In this document: one piece after another, positions 16,207-62,062 of the stretch
How the letters are laid out: every line of letters begins with the position of its first letter
Position numbering within the stretch: position 1 is the stretch's first letter
NCBI GenBank assembly: GCA_903813345.2
Contig: CAIIXF020000003.1
Coordinates: 25,929,248 to 25,993,247 of the forward strand
From: Owenia fusiformis
Taxonomy: Eukaryota > Annelida > Polychaeta > Sabellida > Oweniidae
Direction of reading: 5' to 3'
Length of the DNA: 64,000 nucleotides
Notes under the pieces: generated by a model
What the model was told of the DNA's origin: nothing
Databases searched by the model: none
Seen by the model: the letters and a program-made list of their open reading frames with translations, nothing else
Position numbers and translations under genes: made by a program

Positions 16207-16362
16207 TTAACAATTGTCGATGTGATATTTTTGAGTGACCACAGGGAAATATCATGATAGAAAGAATAAAACATCTTAACTCAAAGTATCTAAAAGTTGC
16301 AATCAATTCCGTAACCCAAATCCATGCTAAGCAAATAACCCAAATCCATGCTTAGCAAAGAC

Positions 16363-20109: not shown

Positions 20110-20380
20110 GGTATCCCCACTGCAGGCCTGTCAACTGTCCCGCAATTTGCGTATTTGTCACGCATTTGCTGAAGAATTTGAAGTCACGCCAGTTATTTTT
20201 GCGTGACAGAAAATGTCACGCAAATACGCATTTTACCTGGTAATTGTCAAGTAAAAATATTTCTGTAGAAAAATTTCTAAAAAAGATCGTCTACACAGCA
20301 AAAATACGAACGCCGGAAAAAAATGTACGCATTTCGTTCGGACTTTTCACGCGAATTACGTATATGTCACGCATTCCGTT
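20110..20380. repeat. Inverted repeat with GCGTATTTGTCACGC arms
   Basis: GCGTATTTGTCACGCATTTG (about 20147) is mirrored by TGTCACGCAAATACGC (about 20214), making a stem with an inner stem as well. Downstream, CACGCGAATTACGTATATGTC (about 20349) is nearly repeated at 31065-31090, so this belongs to a dispersed family. Confidence 0.55.
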
Positions 20381-20434
20381 CGAAATCAATGAAAGTTGAA
20401 TGCCAATAAATAGCTATTTATTACACCTATTTAT

Positions 20435-20651
20435 TAGACTCCAGATTGAAAATCTGGAGTCTATTGTTCTCGTCAGTTTTCTTATTCTTCTTCTTCTTCT
20501 TCTTCTTCTTATTATTATTAGACTCCAGATTGAAAATCTGGAGTCTATTGCTTTTGCCAGTTTTCTTATTATTAGACTCCAGATTGAAAATCTGGAGTCT
20601 ATTGTTTTTGCCTGTTTTCTTATTAGACTCCAGATGAAAATCTGGAGTCTA
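20435..20651. repeat. Four copies of a TAGACTCCAGA...TCTGGAGTCTA hairpin
   Basis: A 28-29-bp palindrome (TAGACTCCAGATT, AAA, then its complement) starts at about 20435, 20519, 20572 and 20624. Each is followed by ATTG and a TTTTGCCAGTTTTCTTATT-like tail. The right half of the palindrome, TCTGGAGTC, recurs just before each of the four terminal hairpins of the array that follows. I read these as repeated 5' ends of that family, with the two TCTGGAGTC/GACTCCAGA words forming subterminal inverted repeats. Confidence 0.6.
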
Positions 20652-37057: not shown

Positions 37058-40000
37058 ATGGCTGGCAAATTGTTCATTTGCATTCTGTGCACGACGATGG
37101 TGAAACTTATGCTTTGTGAAAGTAAGTATGAACTTCGTTCTTTTTTAGCCTTCTTCCAATGAAGAGTATTTAAAGTTTCCGATCTCAGCATGGATTCCAC
37201 CCCCGGGTGTTCACTGTATACACAATTTTGAGGGGGTTTTCCGAAGGCTGAACCCTCAGATAGATCAATTCAATACTGTATATTCCCTAGGTACATTCAT
37301 GCACCCTCTGGGTCTCTGAGGATCGTGTTGGGTCCATACGACAATCCAACGCATTAGAGGCGGTGTTCATCGTCTATATATTCCCATACCAAACTGTCAA
37401 ATTTCAATTTGTTCCCATACCAACCAAATAACGCCTAAAAGCCATACCAAATGTCCAAATATAAGATCAATGCCATACTAAATGTCTGGGTTTGTAGGAA
37501 AAAATGGGTACCGGGTAGTAAATCCTCCATGCTGGGTTCAAACTTAATTGGTACCTGGTCGAAAAAACCGGGTACCCAAAAAAACGAAAAATACGAATAT
37601 ATAACATAATAAGATCATTAGAAAACGTGTAAGATTTGTTTTGAATTCACAAAAATGTATGTAACTTCTTTCAAAATTGAGCTAGCAGCTTCAAATAAAA
37701 AGCATTTTAAGGCTCTTTTCTTCCTCTATCATTTTCATCATGGTCATATTTTCATTGGTTATGGGGGGGGGGGGGGTGCGGTCGCACCATCGAACCCCCT
37801 CCTGGCTACGCCTATGACATTGCAAGACGATTTGAAAAACATGACAATCAATCTTACTCTATTTTCAATAGTTAGTATGTTGGTACGTGAATTGTTTTGA
37901 TCATGATTTAAATCTGTAAATAGCTATCATTACTTTAGCAGAGAAGTTCGTCCACTGAAGTGTAAATTGTTACGTCTTACACTGTCATAGGCGTAGCAAA
38001 GAGGGGGTGAGATGGTGCAATCGTACCCCCCCCATAACCAGTAAATATCAGTAAATAATACTCTATAATTTTCTGTGATTCATGATCTGATTTTTCATAC
38101 ATGCAGATCTACATTATATAAATGTAATTCAGAGTTGGATAAAGTGGCCTAGTAATCCATCATTACATGTAGATTCTAGAGAAATGTTGTTCATAAGTGA
38201 AAACATCTTATAACTGCATGGATAAGCCAGTCTGTGCAGATAAAGTCCTGAAATTATTTTTTAAACATGTAATTTGTGGTCACTTGATCCACAATTCACG
38301 CATGAGCAGCCATCTAGAAATTACCGTCTTGTTTGAACAAATTTTTCTGTGGTTCGATTGATCTTTTGTGGTACACTCTATGTAGATAGTGTTTGCAGAA
38401 AATACTCCGTGGGGATATGTGAATGCAATGCAGATTTAACACTCATTTCAATTTGTGATCTTTTGTATAATTTACTTGAATACTTTCGTCTTGAAAAATA
38501 AGAAATCTTATAACACACCCCACACATCTACTTTCCAGTATTCAATAAACACATGGGAGTGAACAGATTATCCTTCATTTACTTTCAGATGTGTTATTCA
38601 CCTCTAATGGCACCAATATCCTATACAAGAAACTGAGTACAACGGATGAGTTTGCTATTGCAGATGTTGGGGTGAGTTATTGTAGTAATACTCCTATCTC
38701 TGTTATGAAGTGATTTCTTTCTTAATTTGACACTATACTTTTGACTCGCATTCATCAACATTTTTAGACCAATAAAATATTCACCGTTGGTCCCATTTCA
38801 ACATGTACTTACTTTTATAACCCCCTTGTTTATTTTATTTGTGTTTATTCTTCAGCCTGCACCAATAATGTCATGTGTATACATATGAATTATAATTTAA
38901 ATGCCTTGTTTTCTGCATTCATATTTTCTCAATGAAGGGTTGGAGTTAGAAAGAAACAAAGGGAAAATTAGCATCTTATCCATTTTTTGCCTCATCACTT
39001 AATGCATTTGTCCAAGATAATTTTGGTATTCAGAAAACACCAAATTAAAATGTTTATATGCTATTTGATTTCAGATGTAAAATACAAAAATGTAATTCTT
39101 GTATTGTTGTGATTTTAGGAAACTGAGAGAGTTGTAGGCCTTGTAATAGACTCAATTAATGGCAAAATTTTCTGGTCAGATGTTGGTGTAAACTCCAATG
39201 GAATCTACAGTGCTGATATTACAGAAACTGGCATTATAAAGTCTTCCAAACAGAAAATAATCAACTGTGAGTACTGTAGGCTGCACTCACACTTAAGTCA
39301 AAAGATGAGCCCATTAGTAAGAGGAGACTTAATGATTACTTTTGTAAGGGTACAACCAGTATGGGTACTCAAATGAGGATGATTATAATTTCGAAACATC
39401 TTAAGTTTCATCTCTTAAGAGCTTTGGGTCATATTAAATTACAGAAGCTGACTGTTGGCAATGTGCAATTTTATTATTTTCATTGTAGACAGGAATCTCA
39501 TGACATCTGAGTCACATTTCAACTTCCTGGTTTGTCCTCTATTGGCATGTAATTATCCATTCCTCCTATAGACTTTTCAATTCCAATTTGTAATTGAGAT
39601 ATTAGAATTGTGGAGTTATCATGATCTGAAATAAGTGATATTTTAATTTGCATGTGTGTGAAGGTTAACTCCCATGAGACAAAAATGACCCTGGACTGCT
39701 GTGTTTGTATTAAAAAAGCATATAAGAGGCACCATTGGTCAGTTAGTGTCACAATTATCATGAAATATTAAGAAATAAACATGAATACATCAATGTTTTT
39801 GCATCTGATTGACAAGGTTCCAGATGTTCCTACTCTAGACCCATTGTGGAAAGCGACTATGCGTTTTTGTAAATGGAGTGACTTTTTAAAAAGTAATGTC
39901 TGAATGAGTGAAAACATATTCTACTCATTTTTCCAAAATTGAAACTGCTGTTAAGGTACAGCTGGAAAGTAATATTTTGGTAAAAAATTGCTATACCAGC

Positions 40001-43000: not shown

Positions 43001-43647
43001 GACCAGGGTACAGGAAAGGTTGAAAGGTCAAGGTTAGATGGCTCTGGTAGGTCAGATATCATGTCTACTGGACTGAGATGGCCCAATGAGATCACCCAGA
43101 AAGATGGGTAAACATTTAAATTTTATATTATTTTGCAATTTTATATTTAATGACATCTTTGATTACTATGGAAGTCTTAACAATATCAACATATTTTAGT
43201 ACATGTATTATACAAGTATGAACATCTATGATACAAGTGAAACGATACCAGTGGAAAGGTATTTTTTTTCATTGGTATGAAGACTTATACTCAAGAGGTT
43301 TATAATTCAAACAAGTTACTTTAGTTTTTATGTGATTTGATAAAATTCTTTTCATTTTGAATACAGCAATGTCTACTGGGTAGAGGCATGGAACAAAACT
43401 CTTGAATACTGGGATGGTGACATTGTTGAGACACTACCTCTAGAGGAGCATACAGGAATCGGCAACCCCATCTTTGGACTCGCCTCCATTGAAAATCATG
43501 ATTTTCTATATGCCTCAGTTTGGAATGTTGGCAAAATACTTCAAATTGATGTTACAAATCGGAAAATTGAGACAATAACTGAAGGACTGGGAAGTGAGGC
43601 AATGTTTGGTGTCGCCATCTATGTAGCAGGGTCAAGTGCATATTCAG
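37058..43647 (+). CDS. Receptor exons 1-6: signal peptide and first YWTD propeller
   Basis: Exon 1 encodes a signal peptide (MAGKLFICILCTTMVKLMLC). Residues about 22-290 form six blades read from NILYKKL, KIFWSDV, HIYWTDV, WLYWDDQ, NVYWVEA and FLYASVW. LRWPNEIT is the usual inter-blade motif (LxWPNGLT in family members). The six-blade count matches an LDL-receptor class B propeller. Exons 4 and 5 both start at blade boundaries. Introns are large (1.5 kb after exon 1, 3.3 kb after exon 3) and carry transposons. Confidence 0.88.
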
Positions 43648-46600
43648 GTAAGGAAAAATATGTGTGATATATTTATCATCCCAGATATAGAGCCATGTGT
43701 TCTTTTTTTACATTTCTCATGAGATTTTAACCATCAAATCATATATCCAAATGTGTTCTCACAGAAGTAAAACATTCAAAATTTTTTTTATAGCTATGCT
43801 TATTATCATCACTTGAAAAAAATTGGTTCTCCGTTACACTTCATTATGTTATACCACAAGAAGTGACGACACATTGCTAACGCCTCCAACTTTTTTATGG
43901 CCGGTGTTCGGTATTCTGTTGTTGGTGTTTGGCATCTGTAACAGCATTCAGTGGTTGGTGTCTGTGACAAATGGCATGTGGTGACATTTCGCAGGTTAAT
44001 GCTGTATTTTTTTGGATTGTTATATTATTCATGAATAATTCCAGCTAGTGACCCATGTGCCAATAACCCCTGTTCAGACCTGTGTCTACCAGTTGGAACC
44101 AGTTATAGATGCTCCTGTCCATCATTTGGTGGAAAGGTCCTAACAGGAAATACTTGCTCAGGTAAATAGTGTTGTATAAATCACTCAACTTTATCAAATT
44201 GTGATGGAAAAATAAGTGTCAATTTAAGTCTTATCATACTCAGTTTAAAAGATGTTTACTATTGTCGGTCAGTCGACAGAGGAGATATTTGTCTTTATTT
44301 GTTCTGTTGTCATGGAAAGAATGAATTTCCTAGTGAAAGTTTTTTACCAAATGAAGACACTTTGTTGAATGGATCATGTTTGCTTTTCCCACAATACTCT
44401 AAATAGTACATGATTGTATAGTTCTTATATACAGTATAAGCATGAATTGTTGCAGTTCCGGAACAGATTGTTTTGTATGCGAGTGCAGATGATGGGGAAG
44501 TGGGTGTGATGTCATCAGGCCAGGGAGCCAATCAGGAACGCAGCACAATTGCCCTTAGTGTGCGTCCAGTCGCTGTAGGCTATGACCCAGTTGATCAGGT
44601 AGTTAAGAAATTATAAAAACTGTAATCGAAGGATGTTGTCTTCATTGAAAATATGTATTACCCCTCTAAATACATGTATATATTCATTTAATTATTGTAC
44701 TTGAGTTGATTTTAAAACCCAGGGTTCCAGCATCATCCACATTGTTCCTTCCTCACTGAGTGGATCATGTCTGGAGCCCTGTGTTTGGAGATTGCTACAT
44801 GGTATAGTGTGGAGTGATCTAACACTAACTGCAGTAAACAGAGCAATCACTTACTGAAAATAGATCTATATTTAATACAGCTGAGACTAGCTGAGAATAT
44901 ATGTATATTTAATGCAATAAATGTTTCAAGATGGTATATTGGAGTGATGTCACACTGAGGGCAATATACAGGGCATCACTGACTGGTAACGGATTAGATA
45001 TGGAGGTGTTTCTCAACACAAGTCACTCACTGGGTGTGGTTGATGGTAAGTCTGTTTTATTCACTCTTGAAAATGAAGATACAAGTTATTACCCCCCTCA
45101 ACACTTCTCAGGACAGTCATAAAGGCTTTCTGGCAGAGATATATCATCTATTTAAGGAGCCCTGATAAACCCCTTCGTTTACGCTTTTTGCGGAACAACA
45201 AATTCCATTAATTCAATTAATGTTGTTACAATCAATAGTTCTACAATATTTTAAATTGAACACATATATAAACAATTAACACATTTAACATATTTTAATT
45301 TTATTTTAGGTTTATACATGGACTATATGAACAGACGTCTCTACTTTTCAAACATGGGAACTGTAGGAGTTGACGATGTTGCATACAGCTGGCATAAAGT
45401 AGAAATGATTTCACTGGATGGAACAAATCGTCGTGAAATTGTTACTGACTCTCAGAACCCCCGCGATGTTACTGTGGATTTTGAAGGTGGATATTTGTAC
45501 TACACGACGTGGGGATCAGATGCAAAGGTTGTGCGAACTTCTCTTGATGGCCAGGATACAACTGTGCTCAAAACTGGGCTTGATAACCCAAATGCTGTTG
45601 TAATGGCTAGAGATGACATTTATGTCATAGATTCCCATGCTAAGACAAGAGAAGGGGGTCAAACAGGGATAAATGGTGCTTTATACAAGATGAACAAAAA
45701 TGGAGAGAATTGGGTTAAAGTATTGGATGACCTACAGGTATTGCTCAATTTATGGAATTAGTTAGTCTTTACACCATTATACTTTGTGATGTGTTATAGC
45801 ATACTTATTTTGTTGTTTAGTGCCATGAATGATAATTCAGAACTACAGTTAAATGCAGCATTATTAGGAAAATTACTTTAAGCTGTTTCATTAACTCACC
45901 ATCTCCTGATCAATAAACACTATTTACTATTTGAAGAATTTTTCGTTCTGTTTGGGTAAAAGCTATCCTAAGATGATAATTTATTTTGTGTTTATTTAAG
46001 ACACCGTTTGGATTGGCATCTAGTGGAGACAAGTTTTACATCAGCGACTGGGGCAAAGAACAGATTCTCAGTTATTCGATAGATGGCGCCACAACTACCA
46101 ATGTTATTCTTGATGATATTGCTACACCCACTGCCCTTCATAGTTCTCAAAAAATGGTTACACTGCCAGGTAAATATGCATATCTCACACCAGTTTCACT
46201 TCAATGTAAACATGTTTCATGCCACTGTATTACAGCAAACTAAAAACAATTTAAATTTCTTCTCATTAGTATCACAACCAGGCAAAGCAAACATTCTTGT
46301 TTCACAGCACATGTTCATTTTCAGATGATTTAAAAGCAAACATTCATATCTCACACCATGGTTTCAAACCCTGAGAACAGTCAAATTATTACAGTACAGT
46401 AAAACCTGTCTAAGTGAACACCTATCCCAAGTGGACACCCTTCCTTCTCACATACTCCACTGACCTCTTTATGAATTTCCCTCTCTCTAGTGAACACCTA
46501 CCGACAGTGAACATTCTAGGCAAAAACTATTGATTGTACACAGGTTATTCTATACTGTAAATGCATTATGCAATTCATGGTCTTTCTTTAATACATATTG

Positions 46601-49600
46601 TGTCATTTTTAAACAATCAAGAAATGTTCCAGAAGTTGTACACAATTATTCGTAATCATTCATAATCACCTTGACCTAATTTCACTAGTAATGAAATAGC
46701 CCAGCATCTTTTTTCCAGGGGAGAGTGGAGTTTGCTCAACAGCAAGTAATACCTGTCAAGAGATCTGTACCACAGAACCAGGGGGCAGTGAAGTGTCATG
46801 CTCATGTAGCTCCTATGATTATCTCCACCTTAAGGCTGGAACACAATGTTCAGGTAGGCCTATTACATAGACTTGGCACACAGGTCTGGTCTATTAAAGC
46901 TGCAGTATTGCTAAATAAACATTAAATGGAAATGTTAAATAAGCAGTCAGCCTTAAATTAATAATAAGTAGGTATATTCTCTATGTTTTGTGAAAGTTTC
47001 AAGGAAAAATATTGAAAAATAAAAAAAATGAAAATGTTTTTGCATGAACTTATTGAACAACCTGTACAAAACAGTTTCCACATAGGATAGACATGTAAAT
47101 CCTCATATTTCAGAATTTAAAACATACCTTGCTTAATTCATTTTACTTGAAAATCATCTTACTTGAAAATCATTTTATTTGAAAACCATTTTGTGGCTGA
47201 ACCGATAGGCATAATAAAGCTACTGGTTGGTTCTGGGAGTTCAACATGTGTTTTAGTGATATTATTCATTTTCCCTATTTTTAGCCCCAACTAGCTTCAT
47301 TGTGTTTGCGGACTTCAACAGCATTAAGATCATTGGCCTTGACTCTGACAATCCTGAAAGCCATGTTCTTGTGGAGGGTAACAGCTATGTGTCCAATTTT
47401 GTAGCTGTTGCCTTTGATGGAAATAGTAAAGTATACTATGCTGATGTAAATACGTAAGTTATATTCAATGAATTTTCTTAAGAATCATTGTTCTCATTCA
47501 TTTAAAACTAGATTTATTGAAACAAGAGCATTTTCATTTAACAAGATAACACTTTACAATATACCTTTGATAATATAAATATAATGAGCATTGATCCTTT
47601 CTGCATTTTACACATTTTAAAGATTAGTTGTGTTGATTGGGTTAAAATTGCCAAAGACCATTTTTTTAAGTAAACAAATTCTGTGACAGTTAGGTTTGAG
47701 TGTCAAATTCTTCGGTCAAATTCTCCCAATCTTTTTGCAGAAAGACCAATGTTTGATATGTTCATTATCTTGTATGAGTTGTTTTGACATTGTATAATGT
47801 CACTTCCATATAGCTTTGCCTCTTGGAGAATTGTTGAAATATCTTTTAAGAATGAAGTTCTGATGTAAGAATAATTCAAAAACCAAATTGATTATATTGT
47901 TTTCAGATATGAGATTTTCTACACCACACTAGATGGCAGCACTAAACACCAGCTGGTGTTCAAATCTGAAGACAGCATAGATGGCATGGCCTTGTATGGT
48001 GGGCGTCTCTATTACACAAGTTTTAACCGAGGGTTGATTGCGACTATTAAACTAGATGGGGAAGACAAAGATAACATCGAGTTAATCTCATTACTCGATA
48101 GGCCACGGGCTATAGAGGTCAAGGTCATTGAAAGCAAGTATGTTCCATAAAAATGTTTTGGTCATCTAATATATGACCCATTTACTATACATTCTAAAAA
48201 TCTAAAATGATATTTATAAGGAAAAATACCTATTTGCAGATAAAATTCCTTCCAAGAAAGATACTTCATGGAATTCCATAGTGCCATTTCAATTTTACTT
48301 TTTATGTCAAAACATGACACCTTGACATCAATTAAAAATGACCCATTGACATCTAAAAACATGATCCATTGACATTTTACAACATGCTCCCTTTGTTTTT
48401 AAAAACATGATCCCTTCACATCTCTAAACATGCTCCCTTGATATTTTAAAATATAATATTTTGTGAAACATGCTTCCATCATATTTTAAACATAAATCCT
48501 CTTTGCATTTTAAACTTGCCCCCCTTGTATCTCAAAACATGCCGCCTTGGCATTTTAAAACATGTCCACTTCACGTTTTAAAGCATATTCTCTTAGCATT
48601 TTTAAACAACCCCTTTGCATTTTAAGATATGCTCTCTTGAGATTTTTAAACATACCCCCTTTACACTTTACTTCATAATCTTCCAGACCATATTTGTTCT
48701 GGTCTGAGTGGGGTAACAATACAGCTGTACAGAAGATGCAACTCTCATTGGATGGACGTGCACCAGAGTCATCAGAGAATCTCCAGATTTCCCCTCAACT
48801 CACTTGGCCCAATGGACTTGCTGTGACAGAGCGTCGACTCTATATTGCTGATGGCAACCCCATGTTGCGCAAGATTCAAAACTGCTCTTTAACTGGTAAG
48901 TTGATATGAGAAGTTTGTGTTCTGTTTTGAATGTGAAATTAATGTTTAAGCGGAAAATTCAGTTTTGTACCTGTATAAAAGGCTTAAAATCGAGAATAAA
49001 ATAAATATTTTTGAAAAGTTCTGAAATTTATATCGATTGAGAAGACCAACACAAACTTACATTTAACAAAGTTACGGTACAAACATTATTTCAGTACAAG
49101 CTCATTTTTTCACTTTCTGCACCATAGGGGGTACTTCATCTACTCCAAATATGCTAATGGTTCTTCTAATTTGCCATTTTTCTTGATATTTGTGGTATTA
49201 TGGTAATAAAACAGCTTGGATTGCAATATAAATTTGTGGGGGAATTTATGAAGACTTCCAGTTTGCATTTTAAGACTGCCATAATGGTATCACAAAATAA
49301 TCAGTTTAACACGATGTTTTCTGAGTCTATATGGGGATATTAGGAGGCGTATCTAATTGCATTGAGGAGCATTTTGGTTTTATGTAAAATACATGGAGGT
49401 GCTGCACCTCAGAGATTTCAATTTCGGGAGAGCACTGGAGTGGAATGTTAGACCATAGTTTCTGTGAAATGAAATGGAATGTTTGTTTGTTTTCTTATGA
49501 CTTAATTAATGTATAATTTAGGATGGATAAAAAACTCATTTTGATGGAACGAACAATGTATACCATAATATTTTATACTGTCACATTCATTTTTTCATAG

Positions 49601-52600
49601 GCCACAACTGCAATGACTTGGGATATTTCACCAACAAATCTGAGCATCTTTATGACATAGAAATGGTCTCTATGAGCTCTGGGAATGGCAATGACTACAT
49701 GATCTACACAGACTGGAAAGACAAATCATTATCTATGTACAACTTGCAAACTGGTGAGTTGTTTTTAGAGTCAAAATCCTTATTTTTACACACAAAGAAA
49801 TAAGATGCCGTGTAATATAGATTGAACTGGTACAATGTTTTTCACAATTTCCTCACTAATTAATGTCAAATATACATATATGGATAAAATTGATGACGAA
49901 ATGTCTCTTAGTTGTAAATATATCATAGATATGATAATAATATAGAAAAAACTAGCACTCATTTGCAGGCTCAAATGTTTCTCAGATCATATTGTTGATA
50001 TTGCACCCATTGAAGTAAATTTATACTTTGACACACCATAAACTAAAACTAATTATTTTCTTTAGTATTTTTTACCATTGTATGTTATCTTTGTGAACTT
50101 TAAGATGAAAAGATTTTATCTCAGCTCTCTGCTATTACACCTGCACTTTTGATAATAAGAACTGTCTATACATAGTCCTTTCTCTATCAGTACATTGATT
50201 CTATAGATGTATCATGTAACATGTAGCTGAAATGTATTTTTCTAGGTGATATCACTGTTCTGGCTGACAACCTTATGAGGCCCACTCAAGTTGCTGTTCA
50301 TATTACAACACCAACAACCACAGGTAAAACATATTATATATCTCAGGAATTTCATTGTCATCATCAAGAAGTGGTGATATATTTTGATAGCAGCCATTTT
50401 TGTGACTGGTATTTGGCATTGGAATTAGATATTTGGCATTTTTGGCACTTGGTGTTTATTAAGTATGTTACTTCAGATTTGAGGCAACATCTGTAACTTA
50501 TTAGTCTTTGGATTAGCAACTACAGATTTACTAAAACACGATACATGGGATACAACAAAATATGGGATATAATCAAACAGAATATGAGGGGAAACATAGT
50601 GAAGACCATACCTATATATCATCTTTCAGAATGTCCTAGCAACCATGGCTGTGAAGTAGCATGTGTGGTAGACCCCACTGGATATCATTGTAGCTGTGGA
50701 CTAGGAAAGACTCTCAATGCTGATGGCAAAACATGCAAGACAGGTTAGACTCTTTATATTGCATTCCGTCATACAAACTCACATGAGTCCACCCGTATAC
50801 AAACTCACTTGCGGTGAGCTGTGCTTTTTTGTTTCAGTTTCTAAATACTTTCCAAAGAAATGTCTGCTTGCTAATAAAGAACAATATATGTGAGATCCAT
50901 TAATTAAAGTTAATTAGAGTTAAATTATTTTTTTGTTTGATTTTGAATTTAGTGTATGCCAAAGTGGAGAAAGTAGACATGAGTGCATGTTCATCTCCCT
51001 GTGGGGAATATGAGGTTTGTGGTCGTACTGTGGGGTCTGCAAATCTTGAATGCGTCTGTGACAAAGGTCAAGGTCATGCCAGTAATGCAGGTTGTTATGG
51101 TGAGTACACAACTGGGTTGTTGATTCAGATTTTGTGACGTACATGATTGTATGTACGTGTACTTCAGACCTACAAATCTATCTGATATTTATGGAAATGT
51201 ATCATGATAAATGATCTGTTTTGACAGAATTATGTTTTGTCAAAGTACTATAATATTTCATTACATGTATTCAGGGTTTAACAATTTTAAAACATTTATT
51301 CAAAATAATCAAAATTCGAAAATTCTTGTTTCTTTTCAGCATGTGCAGTAGGTTTGTACAAAGATTTTGTCGGCAACCAGCCTTGTAAACCGTGTCCAGA
51401 GGGGACTGGAGGAGAGGATGTAGGGGCAACGTCATGCTCATGTACCTCAGAATACACGTGGTATGAGGGGGCATGTAGAGGTGAGGGACTATGATGATGA
51501 AAAAGGTCATGGTGATCATGTTTTTAAAAGCAAAGTAGAGTGGAAAATAGAGGAATCGGTGGGGGCAATGTCATGCTCATGTACCTCAGAATACACGTGG
51601 TATGAGGGGGCATGTAGAGGTGAGGGACTATGATGATGAGAAAGGTCATGGTGATCATGTTTTTAAAAGCAAAGTAGAGTGGAAAATAGAGGAATCGGTG
51701 GGGGCAATGTCATGCTCATGTACCTCAGAATACACGTGGTATGAGGGGGCATGTAGAGGTGAGGGACTATGTTGATGAGAAAAGTCATGGTGATCATGTT
51801 TTAAAATGCAAAATAGAATGCAAAATAGAGGAATCGATCGAGTATAACAGATTGAAGGTCAATATATTAATTTGTGCTCTGTGTGACAAGCAGTTATGTT
51901 TGGGGGAGGGGGTGATAAATCATTTTGCAATTAATTTTTCTTTAATGATACCAAGTGGTATGAAGCTTCATACAGTAAAGCTTAAAGATTATAATGCTTT
52001 TAATCACTCAATTTAAAATACTTCTAACATCCAGCAAGGTATACAGGTATATAGGTCTCCCATACGAGTTTTTTAGTCTAATAAGTAATCAATTCTCAGT
52101 AGAGTCATTTAACACCATGAAATCGGGTGCTTGCTTTGTAGCATGGGGAATTTTAGCAGTTTCAAGCATTGGACAACAATTATTGTAATCTCTTTATAGT
52201 GGATGCATGCTTGGTTGAAGGGACAGCATATGCTTTAGGGGAAACCTATTCACCTAATAGCTGTACTACTTGTGAATGTAAGGATACAGGACCACAGTGC
52301 ACCTCCCAGACCTGTCAGGAACTACTTTGTGAAGAGAAAGTAGTCCCAGCTAGGGAATGCTGTCCAGTGTGCATTAGCACAACACCTGCCCCTGTTACTA
52401 CCCCTGCAATTGGAGGTACAATTTACCCAATAGCTTGTTAACACAAGTAATCATCTTAATATATATCACATTGTAGCCAAAATTACAAACTGTTTGTAAA
52501 CAATAAAGACAGGTTTAAAATAATGCTTATATTTGCTTAAATAAGTGGATTGTATTTAGTTAACTTTCAATGGTATAGGGTTTACGCAAAAGACCGACCC

Positions 52601-55600
52601 CACCGACCACCGACCGGTCGGTGTTTTCCACTTGTAGCCTCATAACAGGGTTTGAAGAAAATGTGTAAAAGACCGACCATATCATGTAAAAGACCGAACA
52701 TATTTGTAGCCTTAAAATATTAATAATTTGATTTTGAATGTCAATCGTTGGACTAGGCAACAGTTTTTACCGATTTTGTATCTTGCAACGAATGGCAAGC
52801 AAACAAATTAGGCATGACCGTCTCCTCTCGATTAATTGTCCTGCCTTAGGTCCTAACCTATCATTAACCAACCCATCGTTTCCACGGGAATCTATCCTAA
52901 TTTTTTACTGAAATTTAACAATTTCGAAACAAAAATGATTTGTTATCGTCATAGCCTACTGAATACTGAACACGATATAATGTTACATGCGTTCTCTTAT
53001 CGGGATTAAAAGTGACTTACCATTTCAGTACACCATTAGAAAGCTTTTTTTGTCATATCAAATGTAGTTTTTACCAGTTGACGTTTAACAACTGAGAAAT
53101 CAAACATAACGTTACGACGTCAACATCGACGATGTTTGTGTGTTTTTGTTATTGCGTTTCATATGAATGAAGAATGAACTTAATGCAATGTTACGTGCGT
53201 TTTTTTCCAAAGTGACAAACCAGGATGAAATTGGTCTTCTAACAACTGAAACATCACTTAAAAATATGACATTACACACCACGACGATGTAACGTTTTCA
53301 TCGTGATTTGAAATGATAATTATACGTTTTTAAATCACGATGTAGTAAAGATACTATAGTCATTGGATTCCCAGTTTTACTTCTAATTTTGCATTTTTTC
53401 ATCTTTATGTAAAAGACCGTCAGCCGACCACCGACCACATGTACCCAACTATGGAGAGTGACTGGTCGGTGGTCGGTGGTCGGCGGTCGGTGTTTTGTTT
53501 TGAGGCTACCAGTGGAAAACACCGACCGGTCGGTGGTCGGTGGGGTCGGTCTTTTGCGTAAACCCTGATGTTTAATAGCCTTCGATTAAGATGGGTTGAG
53601 TTATATATTACATGTATGCAGAGGGGAAAGATTCAATGCATTTTTAATTTTGCTTTTTTCACACAACTTAATTTTGAGTGAAACTTAAAACACAATGAAA
53701 TATTATTTCACTGCTTTTACATTATGACCAATTAATAGAAAATCTATCCTCAGTGAATTTAAAGTGAGAATCTAGCGAGCAACCTAATAGCCGAACAAAG
53801 ATTGTTTTTATCATAAACATGAATAAAATTTTCAAGAGATATGATATATGAAGATTGTAACGATCGAGTGCATTGGGAGGTCACTCAGTAGTGCATTTTG
53901 ATTGTAATATAGACACCTCATTTAGAACTGATACAGCCTTTAAATTCCAGCTGAATTTTGGAAATGCTCATTCATAAGCACCCATGAAGTTAGATATATT
54001 CACAGAAGCCTCCCTTGAACTATTGGTTGAACTTATATTGGGCTTGGGCTGGACAATATGCCAGGCTGTCTATAAAAAAAGAAAATCTTTTACATGATGT
54101 TTTATTTTGTTTAGCTTTTACAAATTGCAACGAAGATGAGCAAAGTCTACAACTTGAAAAAGGACGTGATACGATCAAGTCATCATACATGTTAGAATAC
54201 CAGCCCCAAAATGCTACCTTGAGCTACGAGCCCATATCTTATCCATATGTGCGTTTTACGGGACAACAGATAGATGTCACTGGTACATTGAAATGGAATG
54301 ATAAGGTTGAACAGTGCACATTTAAAGTTGATGTAGAAGGTAACAAATTGTCTGACCTTTTAAATTACAGTACATGTACTGTACATGGATTGTACAGTAA
54401 AACTTCCTCTGAACATACTCTTTTTTCTCAGCGAAAGTGTTTGATATACATAGTTTTAATGTATGTTGACACACACTACAGCCTATCTGTGTCTAGAAAA
54501 ATTAGAGGTGATGTCTAAATATTAACAGCTGTGGAAGAGAAGTTATTAGAGGGAGAGATAAACAGTTATTTAGGATAAAGTATTGATTTGGCAAACCTTT
54601 TTTGAATATTTTTCTCATTGATAATCAAACAGCGCTCGCTTATCCCTTAACAAGTTACTCAAACTCAGAATTGTAATTGTTGTTTAATGCCATAGTATGT
54701 ATAAAATTCTATCATTAATTTCATAAGGTGCAAAGAAATTGCCAACAGGGTTGTGTGTAATTTTCAAATTTTTGATGGGGTGCAGCTATTGGTTGCTCTG
54801 CTCACTAATAATACTCCTCATGAGGAACATGGAAAACTACAGATTCATATATTTTGTAGATAAAGAACGCCCCACTGTTCAGTGTGAAGACGTATCTGTA
54901 TTCTTGGGAGAGGCTGGGAAGGCTGCAAGTGTGTATTGGATGCCACCAAAGGTAACAATGCTGTCGTTAAACTGTTTACTTTAGAGGAACACATCTGGAT
55001 GATTTATTTGAAAACTTAAAATGCATCTTTTTTGTAAACAAATATTTGGCCTCCAAAAATGTACTGTAACAATTTCATTCACAGGAAGTTCTTTCAAATA
55101 GGATGTTTTCATTGTTTTGTGTATGACTAGCAAATGAAGAATTTTTTTGTTCCTTTTGCCTTTTTGCATCAATAAAGCATTGGAACTCATACTGGTGAGA
55201 AGGATTGTTTAATTGGAATGTTTTAATGATCACCCTTTAGGTGACAGACAATGTGGCAGAAAGCACCGAGTTGCAAGAAGATCTTGTGTGTTCCCCCTAT
55301 TCCTCTGGAGATCCTCTAAAAGAGGGCGCTTATGTTGTTAACTGCAAAGTGCAAGACTCTGCAAAGAATGAAGGGACATGTAGCTTCAGCGTGTCTGTAC
55401 AGAAAAATGGTAAGAATAGTTTTACAGCCTAAAATATAAACTGATTGTACTATCATACTTGGATCTGAATGGTCAGGATAATGAAAACCGGTAAATTTAA
55501 TGAGCACAAACATTATTGAAATCACTACGAAGGAAAATGTTTTCTACATGTTACTCTTACAAGTATTTCATGGCATCTGGTTAACATGGGACTACAATGA

Positions 55601-58600
55601 AACCCAGAGTATTATGAGTAACAGGAAATTACCCTTTCAATAGAGCAAGTTATGTTGTCTTTAGCATTTTCTCTAGTTGACATTTATAGGCCCAAACAGC
55701 CCGCTCACATTATCTTAATGTACAAATTAAGAGTCTTGTTCACATAATTTACATAATTATATAAGAAGAACATTTGAACATTCGTATAGAAAGCCTGTGT
55801 AAATGGAATATCTTTCAAATGGAACACTTTTCTATGCTTCCAAGGGTGTTCCATTTACACATGATTTACGGTACAGTAGGTAGAACCTGTCTAATCTGAA
55901 CACCTCTGGGACTGGCCATGCCAAAATTGTTCAAATTGAATCCAAGGAACTGAAAAGACTGTTCAGACAAGAAAAGTTTTTTTGATAAACAGGTTTTACT
56001 GTATCACATATTGTATATATTACAGTGGGAAAGTGTCCCACTCCTCCAAACATCACTGGTGGGAAGTTTTCCTGTAAGGGAACAGAATGTAGCGTGACAT
56101 GCAACGAGGGACGCCAATTCTCTGGGTCATTTCCACCAGTATACAGTTGCAAGACAGACACCTGGAGTCCAAAATTTCCTAAAAACCTAGCTGCCTTTGC
56201 CTGCAAAAGTAAGTGATTGAAATACCCCCCTCCCTAGCTGCCCCAGATGCAATTTGGACAAATGAAAATAGCATTGAAGTAATAATTTATGGTATGTTCT
56301 CAAGACATGTTTATTTTATGATTCTAATATGTTACATAAAGTGAAGAAAGGAATGCCGTATATCTGCCATAGTTCTTTGACATTTCAGATTTGCTCTGTT
56401 AGTGAAACAGACCTACAAGTAAAGTATCAATCGATGAAAATCAAAAAATTCAACACACGTTCTCTAAATTGACCTATTTTTGTAGAACTCCGTAGCAAGC
56501 CAATTATGATCCAATCCACAATTAAGTTAGACTACTCCGGAGAATGCTCAACTGCAACAAAAGAACGCCTCATAGATGAATCACGAACGTTGCTGAGGAA
56601 TCATGGGGCATGTATGCATTCTGGCAATTCATTTTGCCAGGATGGTGCGTTCACCGCAAAATGCGAAAATTCTGTAAAACGAGAAGCACCTGGAACTGCA
56701 GTCATGTGGGATGTAGTGATAGTAGATAGGTATGACTATGGTAGTATATCATTTCAAAATGTTTCAGTTATTTTTGACTCACATGGTTAAGCCTATGGAA
56801 TTACCTACTCGTTCATCTGTCCATCTTTCTATTACACCATTGGTCCCAGCTCCAATTACCTTTGCCTGTTGACATATTATTGTATATATCTATTACACTT
56901 AAGTGAATCTGCTTTTCAGTCCATTTAATATTCAGATAGTAATTGTGTTATAAGATTGCCTTTTCATCTGTTTATGCAGGACATATGTGTCGTTGTGTAA
57001 AATAGGCACCAATGAAGTTCCCAAATTACCCGAGTATTCATTTTTTTTTTATTCTGCCAGCCTGCCTTACCATACCTAAAGGGAAATTACTGATTGTACT
57101 CTGCCTACCTAATTAACCAGATATCTCATTTTATTCAGCCGCAAAACAAATGATCTCTTTATTTTCAGTATGGATGGTACAGTTAAAGCTGATGACATCA
57201 ACATTGATCTTGATGAAGTTATTGAGGATATACAGGTCAAGACTGTCACATATACTGTAGATGGGGGTGAGGTGACTCTACTTGATATTTCAAAAGAAAC
57301 AGGTTTGTTGGATAGCTTGCACGCCTCAAGCAACTGGCTGATATGGCTTAAGATTATATTTTTTTTTTATTATTATTTATTGCTCTCACTATTTACAACA
57401 GTGGCACATGAGGAGTATCAGTGCGGCAGAATGACATATCATTAAAATACAACATATTACAGCATTAAAAAACATTAAAATATTTGTTAAAATACATTAC
57501 AATACTGATAATAGACTTTTATCTTCATTGTCATTACAGAAAGTGAAAGTGAATAAAATCAATGTTTGAATATCTCTTTATTGATATCAACTAAAAATGT
57601 TTTTGATAGCTTATCAAAAGTAGAACCTAGGTCCTGTCCCCAATATATAGCTACATCATCCCCCAAAATCCAACGTGTTTTCTCAGAAATGGAAAGTTGT
57701 AAAAAACTATTGACAATTGAATCCGGGCATTCTTTATTAAACTTTTCAAAAAACACATTTCGTTGTGTTGTTGTGGATGGGCAAGTAAATAAGCGGTGTT
57801 CAAGTGTATCTTTTTCTGAGAGGCAAGTACTACAGAACCCATCTGACAGTCCCCTCCTTTCAAGATCAGTATTCAAGCCCAGACATTTAGCGCGAGCTCT
57901 GAATTTGATATGCTGGCTGTAAAAATCCATGCCTGTTTTCAGATAATTTTCTAAAAAAGTATGGTTCTTAACAGTCTTGAATAGTGACAATGATGATTTA
58001 TCGCATATTGCCTCATTAAAGCATCTTACCCATTGTTCATTTGAAATATTTAAATAAGATGTGTACCAGTTAGTATCGTCACGGTATATAACATCATCAA
58101 GTCCAACCTCAGTTAGGATTGAGTGGACATTTTCCATAAAAGGCCATGGTGCCTTGTGACCAAGCTTAAACTCATGTAGCAAATAATTGAAAATATCTTT
58201 ATGGAGTCCATTCTTCAAGGAACTTTTTAAATAAATAAAATAATCAATCTGGCGTTTATGTATAATATCACAGATTGGTCTCCACCCAAGGTCACCAAGG
58301 AGGGATTCTCTTGCAGGGTTGCATTTGAGTTGCATTAAGGCCTTAGCCATTTTGTATTGCATAGTGCTAAGATATTTTTCGGTGGTCTTATTCAGTAACA
58401 TTACTCCACAACCATGGAGTATTGCAGGCAAAAACATTCCGTTATACATTGTATTGCCAAAATCAATTCTTTTCATATTACAATGCTTTGTCAGTGTAGA
58501 GCAAATCATATTTTGAATTCTTCTTGACTTGGGTTTTAAAGTGTCTTTAATGTGGTAAGTATCCTTCAAAGAACGGTCAAAATAGATACCCAAATACTTG

Positions 58601-61600
58601 TAGACTTTTACTTCTGTCAATTCATGTTCCCCTAATATCCATTTTTTCTCATAATTGATTCTTTGCCCTATAACCATTACTTTCGATTTTTTCGAATTAA
58701 ATTTAAAACCCGTATCCAACTGCAAAAATGTCAGTTACTTTTAAAAGTTTATTCAATTGCTGCTCAGACTCGCCCATAAGCACTATATCATCGGCGAAAA
58801 ATAAAGATGGAATTTTTTTACCTTTAAAGTCAAAGCCAATGTTTTCCTTTTCAAGTGAGCTTAATAAGTCGGTCATTATAATAGAAAATAATGTTGGGGA
58901 AAGGCAGCAACCTTGTTTTAAACCTGTTTCTGAGTCATACCATGGAGTTGAAAAATTTCCAAAAACCACCTTATTAGATATACCTTCATATGTTTTCCTC
59001 AGGAGTCTCCAAAATTTACCCTGTATCCCTTTTTCCCATAATTTCGTAAATAAAATATCCCGATCAATCACGTCGAAAGCCTTGGAAATATCAATAAAAG
59101 CCAAAAAAGATTTTTTGTTCTTTGCCTTTCTTATGCCACATAGGCCCTTTAAGGCAAATATATGGTTTTCCAATCTCAAGTTGGATCTGAAGGCACCTTG
59201 TGTATCCCCAAAGATATTTCTTTTTTCACAAAATGACCTTAATTTACTTTCCATGATAGAAGTGAAAACTTTATAAACATTAGAATTAACTGTGAGGCCC
59301 CTGAAGTTATCTAAATTCTCAATATCATTATTTTTGTGCAGTGGTTTTAATAGGCCTTCTTTCCATTCTTTAGGAATCAGCTCCAATAGTCTTACCTTGT
59401 TAAAAAGGTCAAATAATGGTTTCATTAGCGCAACTCCACCATTTTTCATAAATTCATTCGGTATCTGATCTGTTCCACAAGATTTCCCATTTTTCAAAGT
59501 TTTAATACATGTGGTTATGTCATCAAATTCAAAAGCGCAAAATAAAAGTGAGTCGGTTGAAAAATTTGACATTGACTTTAACTCATCAATTCTATCCTCA
59601 AGGGAAGGTGTGACATGTTTAGGGTTCTTGTTAACTTTACCAACACTACCCCAGTACTTAATGAGGGCATCTGAAATTTGCTTGGGGTCTGTTAATATTG
59701 TGTCAGTGTCGTCGGGGTTTTTAATCTGTATGGGATACCCGGCATTAGCATTAAACATGGTCAGCGTTGTTGTTGAATTCTGTGCTAATGACAGTTTAAA
59801 TCCTTGTTAACAGAGTAGATCTATGATTGAATATGTCCTTAAAATCTTTGTCATTTTCTATTAATATTCCTCATGGTTACGCTGTTGCTTTAATTTCCAA
59901 ATGTTGATTTTTGTATTTCTTTTATTTCAACTTTAATTAATCCTGCTTTTCATTTTCAGAATCAAGGAAAGCTGCATGTCCCCCTGGTGAAATAGTCAGT
60001 AATCAGAACTGTGGTATGTGATTTCATTTTATTTCAGGCTCGTAAAAATATAAAATCGTAGGATAAAAAAACTAATTGGTATGTCACGCCTTAGTTGTAG
60101 TTCTTAAAAGTTAAATTCAATAGACCCTTTGCCATCCTAACCCATTTTGGTGAACTTAGAGGGGACTAGGTTTATATTGCTTAGATTTATGTTGTTAGAC
60201 ATGTAGCTTGCAGGCAGGAATGGTGTTCTCAAACAAAGTTGAAAGAAGTTATTAAAAATTAGCAATATCTTAATCCGATTTCTACAATGCAACTAAAAAA
60301 TTACATAAAGGGGTAACATATTCCAGAGAAATCTGTCACAACATTGTATCAAACTCACATCTTACATATTCCAGAGAAATCTGTCACAACATTGTATCAA
60401 ACTCACATCTTGCATTTTCCAGAGAGATCTGTGACAACATTGTATCAAACTCACATCTTGCATATTCCAGAGAGATCTGTCACAACATTGTATCAAACTC
60501 ACATCTTGCATATTCCAGAGAGGTCTGTCACAACATTGTATCAAACTCACATCTTGCATATTCCAGAGAGATCTGTCACAACATTGTATCAAACTCACAT
60601 CTTGCATATTCCAGAGATCTGTCCAGCTGGAAGTAAACAAGAAGATGCTGATTGTGTTGTGTGTCCGATTGGTGAATACCAAGGATATGAGGGGTCCACA
60701 TCGTGTGATAAATGTCCTGAGGGCACAACAACAGATCTGACAGGCTCCTTCACATTGCAGCAATGTAGGTTCTTTAAAGGATATAAGCCCAGAGCTTGAT
60801 GATGTGGATGCTTTTAATCTCAAGGCTCTTGTATGAGAAGACAAGACTTAGTCAGTTAGCAAGTGCCTTAATCACTCCAAAGTCATGTGAATTTTGTCAC
60901 ATACATGTATTTCAAAACATTTTGAACAATATGATGAAAGATAATGAAATCCAACTCTTTTGTAAGGCATTTTACAAGATCAGCGTTGTGTATTCAATCC
61001 TGGATTTCATTTACTTTCAAATCATGAATTAGCCCGAATCTTTCATTCAAAACCATGTTCATTCTTGTATTACATTTATAAACTTTATAAAACAGGAACA
61101 TATGATTTATTCAAGAAGTGATTTTGATTTGAAAATTCCATCTCGTTTTGTTAAACTAAGTGTAGAAACCAGTACTGCAAAACGTAATAAAACATATTAT
61201 TCATCATACAATGTAGTCTATTTCTCCTGTCTCCAACATTACATTAATTACATTGTTCCAGGTCGTCCTATTGTTAAAAATCCTGAGAAAACAATGATGA
61301 AGGACACTCCTGTGGGACTTATTGTTGGTGTCGTTGTAGCAGTCATCGTGTTGATCATTGTCATTGTTGTTGTCGTTTGTCTGATGAACAGGCGGAATCG
61401 TAAACCAGCTGGCTACCTTCAAGCAGATGACGGGTATGGTTTAGTTATAGTACATGTATGTAATAATTGCGAGGTCCTGCCATTTTTTAAAAAAATGCAC
61501 ATTTTGTGCCGAAAATCCACTTTCCAGTATTTGTGTGGTACAGAGTCCTCCTCATAGAAATATTAATAAGAACTCAAAACATCTAAATGAGTTATATGGC

Positions 61601-62062
61601 AATGGACTGCATACCAGTCAGGCTCACCGTTACGTACGTACTATTTTATTGTTTAAAAAGTTGTGCCCACTCATCTCTATACCGAGAAAAGGGGTAATTC
61701 ATACACTGTCCGAAGCATTTTCTTTGAATAAATAAGAAAATTCAGATAATTATTGTTTTTTGTACACAATACAAAACCATAGTGTGATATAAGTGTTTCT
61801 TTTATAAATTCCCGTCTTTTACAGGGGTGAATTGCGTGCATACAACAGTCCCATCACTAGGGAGTTCAACAACCCTGCTTACGACCTTGTGGGCGAGAAA
61901 GCAGATGATAATGGCTATGCATCCTTGGATAAACCCTCTGAACACCAATATGCAACCCTATGTGAGGCAAGGAGTGGGGAAGTCAATGATCCCAGTCCAA
62001 GTGACGCATTGACAACCTTTAAACCTAAAGTAACCACTACAATTGACAATAATTATTGTTGA
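37058..62062 (+). CDS. LRP-like type I receptor: three YWTD propellers, EGF, VWC, HYR, sushi, GCC2/GCC3, TM and FxNPxY tail (1,698 aa, 31 exons)
   Basis: This is a cell-surface receptor whose FNNPAY tail motif suggests clathrin endocytosis or PTB-adaptor binding. Its ligand is unknown. Coding exons with consistent phase: 37058-37121, 38589-38671, 39119-39266, 42547-42718, 42985-43107, 43367-43647, 44045-44161, 44456-44598, 44931-45045, 45310-45737, 46001-46169, 46719-46853, 47285-47453, 47907-48137, 48687-48895, 49601-49753, 50246-50323, 50630-50743, 50953-51099, 51340-51480, 52200-52415, 54115-54339, 54860-54951, 55241-55409, 56026-56208, 56486-56729, 57169-57302, 59960-60013, 60615-60764, 61262-61433, 61825-62062. 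The lengths sum to 5,097 nt, exactly 1,699 codons with stop. All introns are GT-AG; donors of exons 21 (GTACAA) and 27 (GTTTGT) are weak. Compared with LRP5/6 it has three propellers rather than four and no class A repeats. Exon joins are inferred from sequence, not transcripts. Confidence 0.88.
37756..38040. mobile_element. Small inverted-repeat element in intron 1
   Basis: TGGTTATGGGGGGG...GGTCGCACCATCGA and TGGCTACGCCTATGAC on the left are mirrored by GTCATAGGCGTAGCAAAG...GATGGTGCAATCG and CCCCCATAACCA on the right. The arms are about 65 bp around a 165-bp AT-rich centre. Superfamily unknown. Confidence 0.7.
39951..40362. mobile_element. TTAA-flanked MITE, copy 2 (intron 3)
   Basis: TTAAGGTACAGCTGGAAAGTA on the left and CTTTCCAGCTGAACCTTAA on the right, with TTAA duplicated. 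The arms and middle match the element at 1657-2034, including TTGCTTTTTTCAGGAAAGTA and its complement. This copy keeps longer arms (GTACCAGAAAATAACATG on both sides), so it is closer to the family's full form. Confidence 0.8.
40995..42347. mobile_element. Non-autonomous hAT-like element with 8-bp target duplication (intron 3)
   Basis: The left end begins TAGAGGCTGACGGTAA and the right end, in reverse complement, TAGAGGTCGCAACGGTAC. Exact 8-bp duplications ATTCTGAA flank it at 40987-40994 and 42348-42355. TAGAGG termini with an 8-bp duplication are hAT hallmarks. The subterminal regions are rich in ACCGGTA words. No hAT transposase reading is visible, and another element is nested inside. Confidence 0.85.
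41393..42031. mobile_element. Mariner-like foldback MITE nested in the hAT-like element
   Basis: The right end, in reverse complement, reads TACAGGGTGTCCCGAAAGTA and the left end TACAAAGTGTCCCGAAAGTA. The arms run about 170 bp (GGCAGACATACACCAATGT, AGTATGTGTCATAT, AGCTCATCCAAAGTTACATT mirrored). The TA duplication and the TACAGGGTGTC start are typical of mariner/Tc1-derived MITEs. It postdates the surrounding element. Confidence 0.8.
44045..46853 (+). CDS. Receptor exons 7-12: EGF, second propeller, EGF
   Basis: Exon 7 (residues 291-329) is a six-cysteine EGF module (DPCANNPCSDLC, CSCPSFGG). Exons 8-11 (330-614) give six blades: VLYASAD, MVYWSDV, RLYFSNM, YLYYTTW, DIYVIDS and KFYISDW. Exon 12 (615-659) is a second EGF module (GVCSTASNTCQEIC, CSCSS). 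EGF exons are phase 1-1, as usual for shuffled modules. Exon 9 has a decayed duplicate in the preceding intron. Confidence 0.87.
44799..44856 (+). pseudogene. Decayed duplicate of receptor exon 9
   Basis: ATGGTATAGTGTGGAGTGAT and the following AACAGAGCAATCACTTACTG align with the start of exon 9 (ATGGTATATTGGAGTGATGT ... ACAGGGCATCACTGACTG) with about 75-80 percent identity and a one-base insertion that shifts the frame. The flanking intron words (TATATTTAATACAGC versus TATATTTAATGCAAT) are also duplicated. It reads as an old tandem exon duplication that lost function. Confidence 0.6.
46395..46559. mobile_element. Tigger-like MITE in intron 11
   Basis: The left end TACAGTAAAACCTGTCTAAG and the right end ACACAGGTTATTCTATACTGTA are inverted. 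The interior repeats GTGAACACCTA and AAGTGGACACC words. The same terminus type occurs at 55872-56003 and 62287-63128. Pogo/Tigger elements duplicate TA, as here. Confidence 0.65.
47285..51099 (+). CDS. Receptor exons 13-19: third propeller and two EGF modules
   Basis: Residues 660-939 give six blades: FIVFADF, KVYYADV with its continuation, RLYYTSF, YLFWSEWGN, RLYIADG and MIYTDWKD. A Thr-rich link (TTPTTT) leads to two six-cysteine EGF modules in exons 18 (940-977, ECPSNHGCEVAC, CSCGLGK) and 19 (978-1026, CSSPCGEYEVC, CVCDKGQ). LTWPNGLAV precedes the fifth blade. No calcium-binding EGF consensus is evident. Confidence 0.87.
48280..48665. repeat. Degenerate minisatellite, about 25-35-bp units (intron 14)
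   Basis: Variants of ACATGATCCCTTGACATTTTAAA repeat irregularly through the 3' part of intron 14, ending about 20 bp before the exon 15 acceptor. The units are diverged and of uneven length. Confidence 0.6.
51340..52415 (+). CDS. Receptor exons 20-21: ephrin-receptor-like Cys module and VWC domain
   Basis: Exon 20 (residues 1027-1073) reads CAVGLYKDFVGNQPCKPCPE, GTGG and GATSCSC, the pattern of the ephrin-receptor-like module. Exon 21 (1074-1145) is a ten-cysteine VWC domain with SCTTCEC and ECCPVC signatures, followed by a Thr/Pro linker (TTPAPVTTPA) likely to be O-glycosylated. VWC domains often bind TGF-beta/BMP ligands; that role is only suggested here. The second half of exon 20 is copied twice downstream in the intron. 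Confidence 0.85.
51421..51837. repeat. 139-bp triplication spanning the exon 20 donor
   Basis: GTCATGCTCATGTACCTCAG starts at 51431, 51570 and 51709, a strict 139-bp period. Each unit carries the last about 60 nt of exon 20, the donor GTGAGG and about 80 nt of intron. The copies have three usable-looking donors but no added acceptor. Because 139 and 278 are not multiples of three, use of a downstream donor would break the frame. The first donor gives the intact protein. Confidence 0.85.
52577..53565. mobile_element. Foldback MITE with GGTCGGT-rich arms (intron 21)
   Basis: AGGGTTTACGCAAAAGACCG on the left is mirrored by CGGTCTTTTGCGTAAACCCT on the right. The arms are about 75-130 bp, built of CCGACCACCGACC words around CCGACCGGTCGG palindromes, then TTTTCCACTTGTAGCCTC and its mirror. 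The loop is AT-rich and non-coding. Confidence 0.75.
54115..57302 (+). CDS. Receptor exons 22-27: HYR region, sushi-like module and Cys-containing region
   Basis: Exon 22 (1146-1220) ends QCTFKVDVE, like the last strand of an HYR domain, with a divergent start. Exons 23-24 (1221-1307) are a full HYR domain (ERPTVQCEDVSV, WMPPKVTDNV, VVNCKVQDSAKNEGTCSFSV). Exon 25 (1308-1368) is sushi-like: six cysteines with a Trp (DTWSP). Exons 26-27 (1369-1494) hold IKLDYSGEC, then Cys residues and an acidic segment (NIDLDEVIEDIQ). This resembles, from memory, a region of SVEP1-like proteins between sushi and GCC modules. Exon 27 uses a weak GTTTGT donor into the LINE-bearing intron. Confidence 0.78.
55872..56003. 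mobile_element. Tigger-like MITE directly upstream of exon 25
   Basis: TACAGTAGGTAGAACCTGTC on the left and AACAGGTTTTACTGTA on the right; TCTGAACACC and TGTTCAGACAAG are also mirrored. It ends about 20 bp before the exon 25 acceptor, so it supplies much of that intron end. A second small palindrome (TGTGTAAATGGAA / TTCCATTTACACA) lies at about 55796-55862. Confidence 0.65.
57559..58725 (-). pseudogene. LINE reverse transcriptase, thumb and C-terminal Cys/His region
   Basis: This 388-residue reading continues the RT after the frameshift: TGFKFNSKKSKVMV, then VKVYKYLGIYFD (the conserved YLG segment). Near the end CSTCLSEKDTLEHRLFTCP makes a Cys2-His-Cys zinc-binding pattern like the zf-RVT region. 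It ends in a stop at 57559. The C-terminal frame is intact, which suggests a fairly young insertion. Confidence 0.75.
58703..59758 (-). pseudogene. LINE reverse transcriptase, N-terminal and catalytic part
   Basis: The 351-residue reading shows the RT blocks in order: NGKSCGTDQIPNEFMK, PKEWKEGLLKPLHK, NFRGLTVNSNVYKV, SFLAFIDISKAFDVID (first catalytic Asp), GLKQGCCLSPTLF and FFADDIVLM (the FADD box with the catalytic pair). It ends in a frameshift soon after the FADD box. The pattern fits a non-LTR retrotransposon RT; the clade is not determined. Confidence 0.82.
59960..62062 (+). CDS. Receptor exons 28-31: GCC2/GCC3 module, transmembrane helix and FxNPxY tail
   Basis: Exon 28 is tiny (54 nt, CPPGEIVSNQNC). 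Exon 29 (1513-1562) completes the GCC2/GCC3 module (CPAGS, CVVCPIGEYQG, CDKCPEGTTTD) and its last Cys codon is split onto exon 30. Exon 30 gives the helix at about residues 1580-1604 (VGLIVGVVVAVIVLIIVIVV) followed by the basic stop-transfer NRRNRK. Exon 31 carries FNNPAY (1634-1639), an FxNPxY signal like that of the LDL receptor, and Tyr-containing YASL and YATL motifs further on. Translation stops at TGA 62060-62062. Confidence 0.88.
60321..60614. repeat. 48-bp in-frame minisatellite copying the exon 29 splice acceptor
   Basis: TTCCAGAG recurs at 60321, 60369, 60417, 60465, 60513, 60561 and 60609; the last is the real acceptor of exon 29. Each unit carries the ATTCCAG acceptor and the first bases of the exon (AGATCTGT). 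The period is 16 codons, and the frame entered after exon 28 stays open through every unit. Use of an upstream copy would insert multiples of 16 residues (VTTLYQTHILHIPE-like) without a frameshift. Confidence 0.9.

Follow-up and report, generated by a model that had tools for sequence, protein, structure and literature searches.

The window, a 64,000-nucleotide stretch of the Owenia fusiformis genome, carries on its plus strand (37058-62062) a gene of 31 exons with one stop codon, which encodes a protein of 1,698 residues. All introns (30/30) are of the GT-AG type and every exon join is in phase, and the single open chain claimed in the initial annotation was thus borne out. The model was derived by splice and codon scoring and corrected by hand. 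Its first and last bases were taken from that annotation and the exon count was known beforehand, so that the agreement is not a blind test; the codon scores for the exon-chain searches were trained on peptides picked by eye. Automatic chains computed at three penalties comprised 27 exons (1,508 letters including the stop), 34 exons (1,761 amino acids) and 44 exons (1,906 amino acids). The final chain differs from all three, with exons removed or added by reading the sequence: the automatic chains missed or split real exons and also placed extra exons in repeats (for example 41245-41409), which were dropped, exon 3 joining exon 4 directly in phase. The features of the gene, some of them assigned with the help of a paralog described below, are:

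37058..37121, plus strand: exon 1, start codon (taken from the initial annotation) and signal-peptide-like stretch (hydropathy)
38589..43647, plus strand: exons 2-6, YWTD propeller 1 (Pfam PF00058; PDB LRP2, LRP4 and LRP6)
44045..44161, plus strand: exon 7, EGF module 1 (sequence)
44456..46169, plus strand: exons 8-11, YWTD propeller 2 (Pfam, PDB; introns common to the paralog)
46719..46853, plus strand: exon 12, EGF module 2 (paralog exon of 138 bp with the same phases)
47285..50323, plus strand: exons 13-17, YWTD propeller 3 (Pfam, PDB, paralog alignment)
50630..50743, plus strand: exon 18, EGF module 3 (best Pfam FXa_inhibition stretch, residues 944-975)
50953..51099, plus strand: exon 19, EGF-like module (sequence; paralog counterpart)
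51340..51480, plus strand: exon 20, ephrin-receptor-like module 1 (PDB EphA2, E = 1e-4, residues 1010-1063)
51423..51836, plus strand: 139-bp tandem array of 3 copies, in which the 3' end of exon 20 and its donor recur
52200..52415, plus strand: exon 21, VWC module (Pfam PF00093, E = 5.5e-9)
54115..54339, plus strand: exon 22, HYR-type module 1 (position; the paralog counterpart is HYR by Pfam, E = 2.6e-6)
54860..55409, plus strand: exons 23-24, HYR module 2 (Pfam PF02494, E = 2.2e-9; also a match in the genome profile search)
56026..56208, plus strand: exon 25, sushi module (Pfam PF00084, E = 3.4e-6, exon alone)
56486..60013, plus strand: exons 26-28, unannotated module X, with a LINE in intron 27
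60317..60617, plus strand: 48-bp tandem array of 6.3 copies, each with the acceptor of exon 29 (ttccag) and with the frame open
60615..60764, plus strand: exon 29, ephrin-receptor-like module 2 (Pfam PF07699)
61262..61433, plus strand: exon 30, transmembrane helix (hydropathy)
61825..62062, plus strand: exon 31, cytoplasmic tail (FNNPAY, three YxxPhi motifs) and stop codon

Where exon 29 begins is not certain, since the upstream 48-bp array repeats its acceptor in an open frame, and alternative acceptors in this array might extend the protein by 16-residue blocks ahead of the exon. The LINE in intron 27 (57562-59806, minus strand) encodes a reverse transcriptase (PF00078), with a zf-RVT match below the cut-off in another frame. 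Just upstream of the gene, at 34286-35707 on the minus strand, lies a DDE_1 transposase frame whose C terminus carries a PHD finger.

In a phmmer search against the PDB, the first 977 residues matched LRP2 (E = 1e-134), LRP4 (E = 7e-122) and LRP6 (E = 2e-61), and also nidogen (E = 5e-20). Judged by these scores, the LRP homology of the head is far beyond chance. Pfam detected Ldl_recept_b in three stretches of the N-terminal half and the EGF-type FXa_inhibition in two, the place of the second not being given; the EGF module of exon 7 was assigned from the sequence. The proposed LRP-type head of three YWTD propellers with EGF modules was supported by these matches, and the motif spacing fits a reading of six blades per propeller, with each of the three propellers followed by an EGF module. 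In endocytic LRPs, ligands are usually bound by class A (LDLa) repeats, and YWTD propellers bind many kinds of ligand. The reported absence of class A repeats from the window protein agrees with all searches made: the repeat (PF00057) is missing from the Pfam results for both protein halves, none lies at the locus of the window gene or its paralog among the best 150 of 451 genome candidates, a depth at which a weak repeat could escape, and a motif scan of both loci, run without a positive control, found none. Elsewhere in the genome, at least six other YWTD regions adjoin class A matches (C1:51.00, C6:16.01, C6:20.54, C7:12.79, C7:21.42 and C10:7.54 Mb). Others, such as those at C4:30.70, C7:14.40 and C8:37.11 Mb, have no class A match among the best 150 of 451 candidates, and the absence of these repeats may not be special to the window gene and its paralog.

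In the last 721 residues, Pfam reported two stretches of Ephrin_rec_like (the best in exon 29), one VWC and one HYR. The sushi module was not reported when this whole half was the query; exon 25 alone reached 27.8 bits against a cut-off of 20.7. The ephrin-receptor-like, VWC, HYR and sushi modules of the initial annotation thus were recovered by Pfam, and two other items of its list required correction. GCC2/GCC3, which we take to be a second name of PF07699 (Ephrin_rec_like), is not a distinct module, so that the gene contains two copies of one module under two names. The HYR-type modules number two instead of one (exon 22; exons 23-24); exon 22 gave no Pfam match, and its assignment rests on its position and its paralog counterpart. 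Module X (about 145 residues) had no Pfam match at E values up to 10. Structure predictions for single exons gave a strand-helix-strand-strand arrangement of low confidence for exon 26 (mean pLDDT 55) and a mean pLDDT of 48 for exon 22, values that are not high enough to base a fold search on. By hydropathy, the N terminus is signal-like and a single helix lies within residues 1573-1609, where 19-residue windows starting at 1573-1591 exceed 1.6. The tail of 91 residues contains FNNPAY at position 1634 and also YDLV, YASL and YATL, and the single helix with FNNPAY noted initially was upheld by hydropathy and tail sequence. A match to Amnionless covers helix and tail only (23.3 bits, cut-off 30.4) and was rejected as homology.

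A diverged paralog of the window gene lies 4.2 Mb away, at C3:30.166-30.215 Mb, and has the same module order minus the VWC. It was located by searching the genome with the N-terminal half of the window protein and the YWTD, HYR and Ephrin_rec_like profiles, and it was not among the matches listed for the C-terminal half. At this locus, tblastn matches are collinear between propeller 1 and the last ephrin-receptor-like module, both included, and the window protein and the paralog form a single BLASTP alignment over window residues 158-1610 (27% identity, E = 1e-143), which extends from within propeller 1 as far as the helix. Pfam analysis of pieces of the paralog model detected, above the cut-off, Ldl_recept_b in five stretches, HYR in two and Ephrin_rec_like in two; an EGF match remained under the cut-off and the sushi counterpart had no Pfam match. 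No VWC was detected in the paralog; a Thr/Pro-rich exon takes its place. The paralog model shares the terminal helix with the window protein, but no FxNPxY comparable to the NPxY tail of the latter was seen in its longer modelled tail. Counterparts of window exons 4 and 5 are found at C3:30166247 and C3:30192597, and inspection by eye of the 6 kb that precede the paralog revealed none for exons 1-3.

In building the paralog model, extra weight was given to homology with the window protein, and this can bias boundaries towards agreement; with this model, introns of both genes agree in column and phase in 14/27 cases, and in 17/27 cases within one column and in phase. This count took the 27 of 30 introns that are comparable, misses included, and left out introns 1-3. 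When the paralog introns were placed uniformly at random (20,000 trials), the mean number of agreements was 0.2 for the same column and 0.6 within one column, with maxima of 3 and 5, respectively. A circular-shift control had a maximum of 17 at one column; one-column shifts nearly restore the original arrangement, and the uniform control is thus the fairer one. Matching introns occur on both sides of the junction between the LRP and Polydom parts. Around this junction the phase-1 introns 17-19 and 22 are common to both genes within one column, but introns 20 and 21 are not. The paralog model is partial in its first propeller, is without exons 1-3, represents exon 6 by a short dubious piece and has an error in module X. 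From its 26-kb intron, five pieces (14908-22939 of the 60-kb stretch) were removed as filler before alignment and intron count; its module X exon at 47082-47179 is in the wrong frame and better placed at 46569-46756 of the same stretch, and the counts keep the wrong exon. One frame of the paralog's module X region contains, from C3:30207082 onward, a polybasic run (RRKRKKR) that is a candidate processing site.

A separate SVEP1-like gene is located on the minus strand at C1:21.979-21.999 Mb. Its order is an ephrin-receptor-like module, sushi-type exons, two HYR modules, a sushi-type exon, an unannotated stretch, three ephrin-receptor-like modules and EGF modules, with HYR and ephrin-receptor-like modules assigned by Pfam and the sushi-type exons and the rest by eye; the sushi-type exon after HYR had no Pfam match. 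This arrangement means that the order HYR-HYR-sushi-X-ephrin-receptor-like is common to the SVEP1-like and window genes, and the juxtamembrane set described initially as SVEP1-like thus has its match in the same genome. For the first half of module X, the score of window versus paralog was reached by 4/500 shuffles, which suggests homology for this half and this pair only. For the second half, 78/500 shuffles reached the score of window versus paralog, 32/500 that of paralog versus SVEP1-like gene, and 197/500 that of window versus SVEP1-like gene, which gives no sequence support for homology of module X between the latter two. The module X region of the SVEP1-like gene also contains a polybasic run (RRRR), again a candidate processing site. 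In Nematostella, Polydom-like proteins have a common Sushi-HYR-TKE core with differing added ends, and all members of the family rise at the change from larva to polyp (excerpt of PMC12549020). A core with varied ends fits a mobile cassette.

Like the LDL receptor family (LRP2, LRP4, LRP5/6), the window protein combines three YWTD propellers, an EGF module after each, a single helix and an FxNPxY tail, but class A repeats were not detected in its gene, and VWC and a HYR-HYR-sushi-X-GCC neck precede the membrane. Pro-EGF, nidogen and Drosophila cueball likewise are YWTD proteins without class A repeats. They are not known to have HYR, sushi or ephrin-receptor-like modules; the window protein shares with them a YWTD propeller without LDLa and would differ from them in these modules. 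Its first ephrin-receptor-like module recalls the Eph receptors in matching EphA2, and no ephrin-binding domain, fibronectin type III domain or kinase occurs in the Pfam result for the protein. The Sushi-HYR-ephrin-receptor-like core of SVEP1/Polydom is present as well. Polydom, however, is described as a matrix protein that is secreted and carries vWFA and pentraxin (both core and domains as given in PMC12549020), whereas in the window protein YWTD propellers precede the core and a helix follows it, and neither vWFA nor pentraxin gave a Pfam match in either half. Because neither class A repeats nor vWFA and pentraxin were found in it, the window protein is filed here as a putative new combination of the LDL receptor family and Polydom and as a member of neither. 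No protein with this module order was found in the open-access literature on such domain combinations, to which the search was confined; excerpts of PMC12549020, PMC3534327 and PMC6993872 do not contain it. The architecture thus appears to be new, and every annotated module is known. That one genome contains two diverged genes with this order indicates more than a one-off fusion.

The explanation we favour, and regard as fairly likely, is a gene for a single-pass type I receptor, endocytic or matrix-tethering, that arose by exon shuffling. Shuffling would have joined an LRP-type head of three YWTD propeller-EGF units to a SVEP1/Polydom-type neck. The propeller faces of the head would most likely bind protein ligands, and the neck would serve as a spacer or as a contact to matrix or cells. 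FNNPAY, an internalisation motif of the LDL-receptor type, would recruit a PTB-domain adaptor, upon which the complex would be internalised. Location at the cell surface, ligand binding and uptake are what we infer from this composition. NPxY is the adaptor-docking motif of LDLR, VLDLR, LRP1, LRP1B, LRP2, LRP4, LRP8 and SORLA (excerpt of PMC11772764). FxNPxY-independent internalisation of LDLR in C. elegans (described in a section of PMC7759532) indicates that the motif is not the sole route of uptake. As no FxNPxY was seen in the modelled paralog tail, motif-driven uptake is not a property common to both genes and may be special to the window gene. The window protein probably represents an uptake or adhesion receptor of a new kind, built from known blocks. 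The wider proposal, a receptor family of two old paralogs that captured a Polydom core as a membrane-proximal neck under a three-propeller head, replaced class A repeats by matrix modules and linked matrix contact to NPxY-driven uptake, is evenly balanced between true and false.

It is somewhat unlikely that the protein instead acts in adhesion or engulfment, its HYR-sushi neck binding matrix or corpses and FNNPAY docking an adaptor of the CED-6/GULP type. Engulfment by CED-1 and CED-6 works through NPxY. CED-1 is described as an engulfment receptor that has CED-6/GULP as its adaptor (PMC11228867), and the order of the neck resembles the Polydom core of the Nematostella proteins, as described in the excerpt of PMC12549020; however, no RGD, KGD or LDV motif occurs in the window protein, and a binding role of the neck is putative. 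A signalling co-receptor for Wnt or BMP, with an LRP5/6-like head and a chordin-like VWC in place of an uptake receptor, is unlikely. The match of the head to LRP6 and the VWC module would suit such a role. LRP2 and LRP4 outscore LRP6, though as longer chains with more matched stretches; VWC, the hint at BMP, is missing from the modules detected in the paralog; and the tail has a motif of the endocytic type, whereas no PPPSP, the signalling motif of LRP5/6, was seen in it. The initial suggestion of a BMP-type or Wnt-type ligand hence was not supported. The division into two genes that the initial annotation had named as a possible refutation, in which a secreted LRP-like protein and a neighbouring Polydom-like membrane protein were wrongly joined, is very improbable: head and neck do stem from different families and the join is read from genome sequence, in which intergenic DNA is here indistinguishable from an intron, but the paralog, with the same junction, the phase-1 introns 17-19 and 22 in common and an uninterrupted alignment across it, argues strongly against a merged-gene artefact, as do the one signal-like start in front and the one helix at the end.

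The favoured receptor made by exon shuffling would unite an LRP-type head, a Polydom core and a membrane anchor in one protein. If its surface expression and uptake prove true, it would offer a test case for receptor families that gain ligand-contact parts by phase-1 exon shuffling; the reach of this is limited, as the annotated modules are all known and the ligand is a predicted one.

The genome searches also returned loci of other kinds. Three matches to an erythrocruorin linker domain, all partial and one with an internal stop, lie at C6:27.03-27.05 Mb; the domain is typical of annelids and hints at such a source, while a search for COX1 found no match. Ephrin_rec_like modules form dense clusters at C9:15.885-15.974 and C9:23.944-23.950 Mb, and one of these clusters lies within one open frame that is 1,569 residues long.
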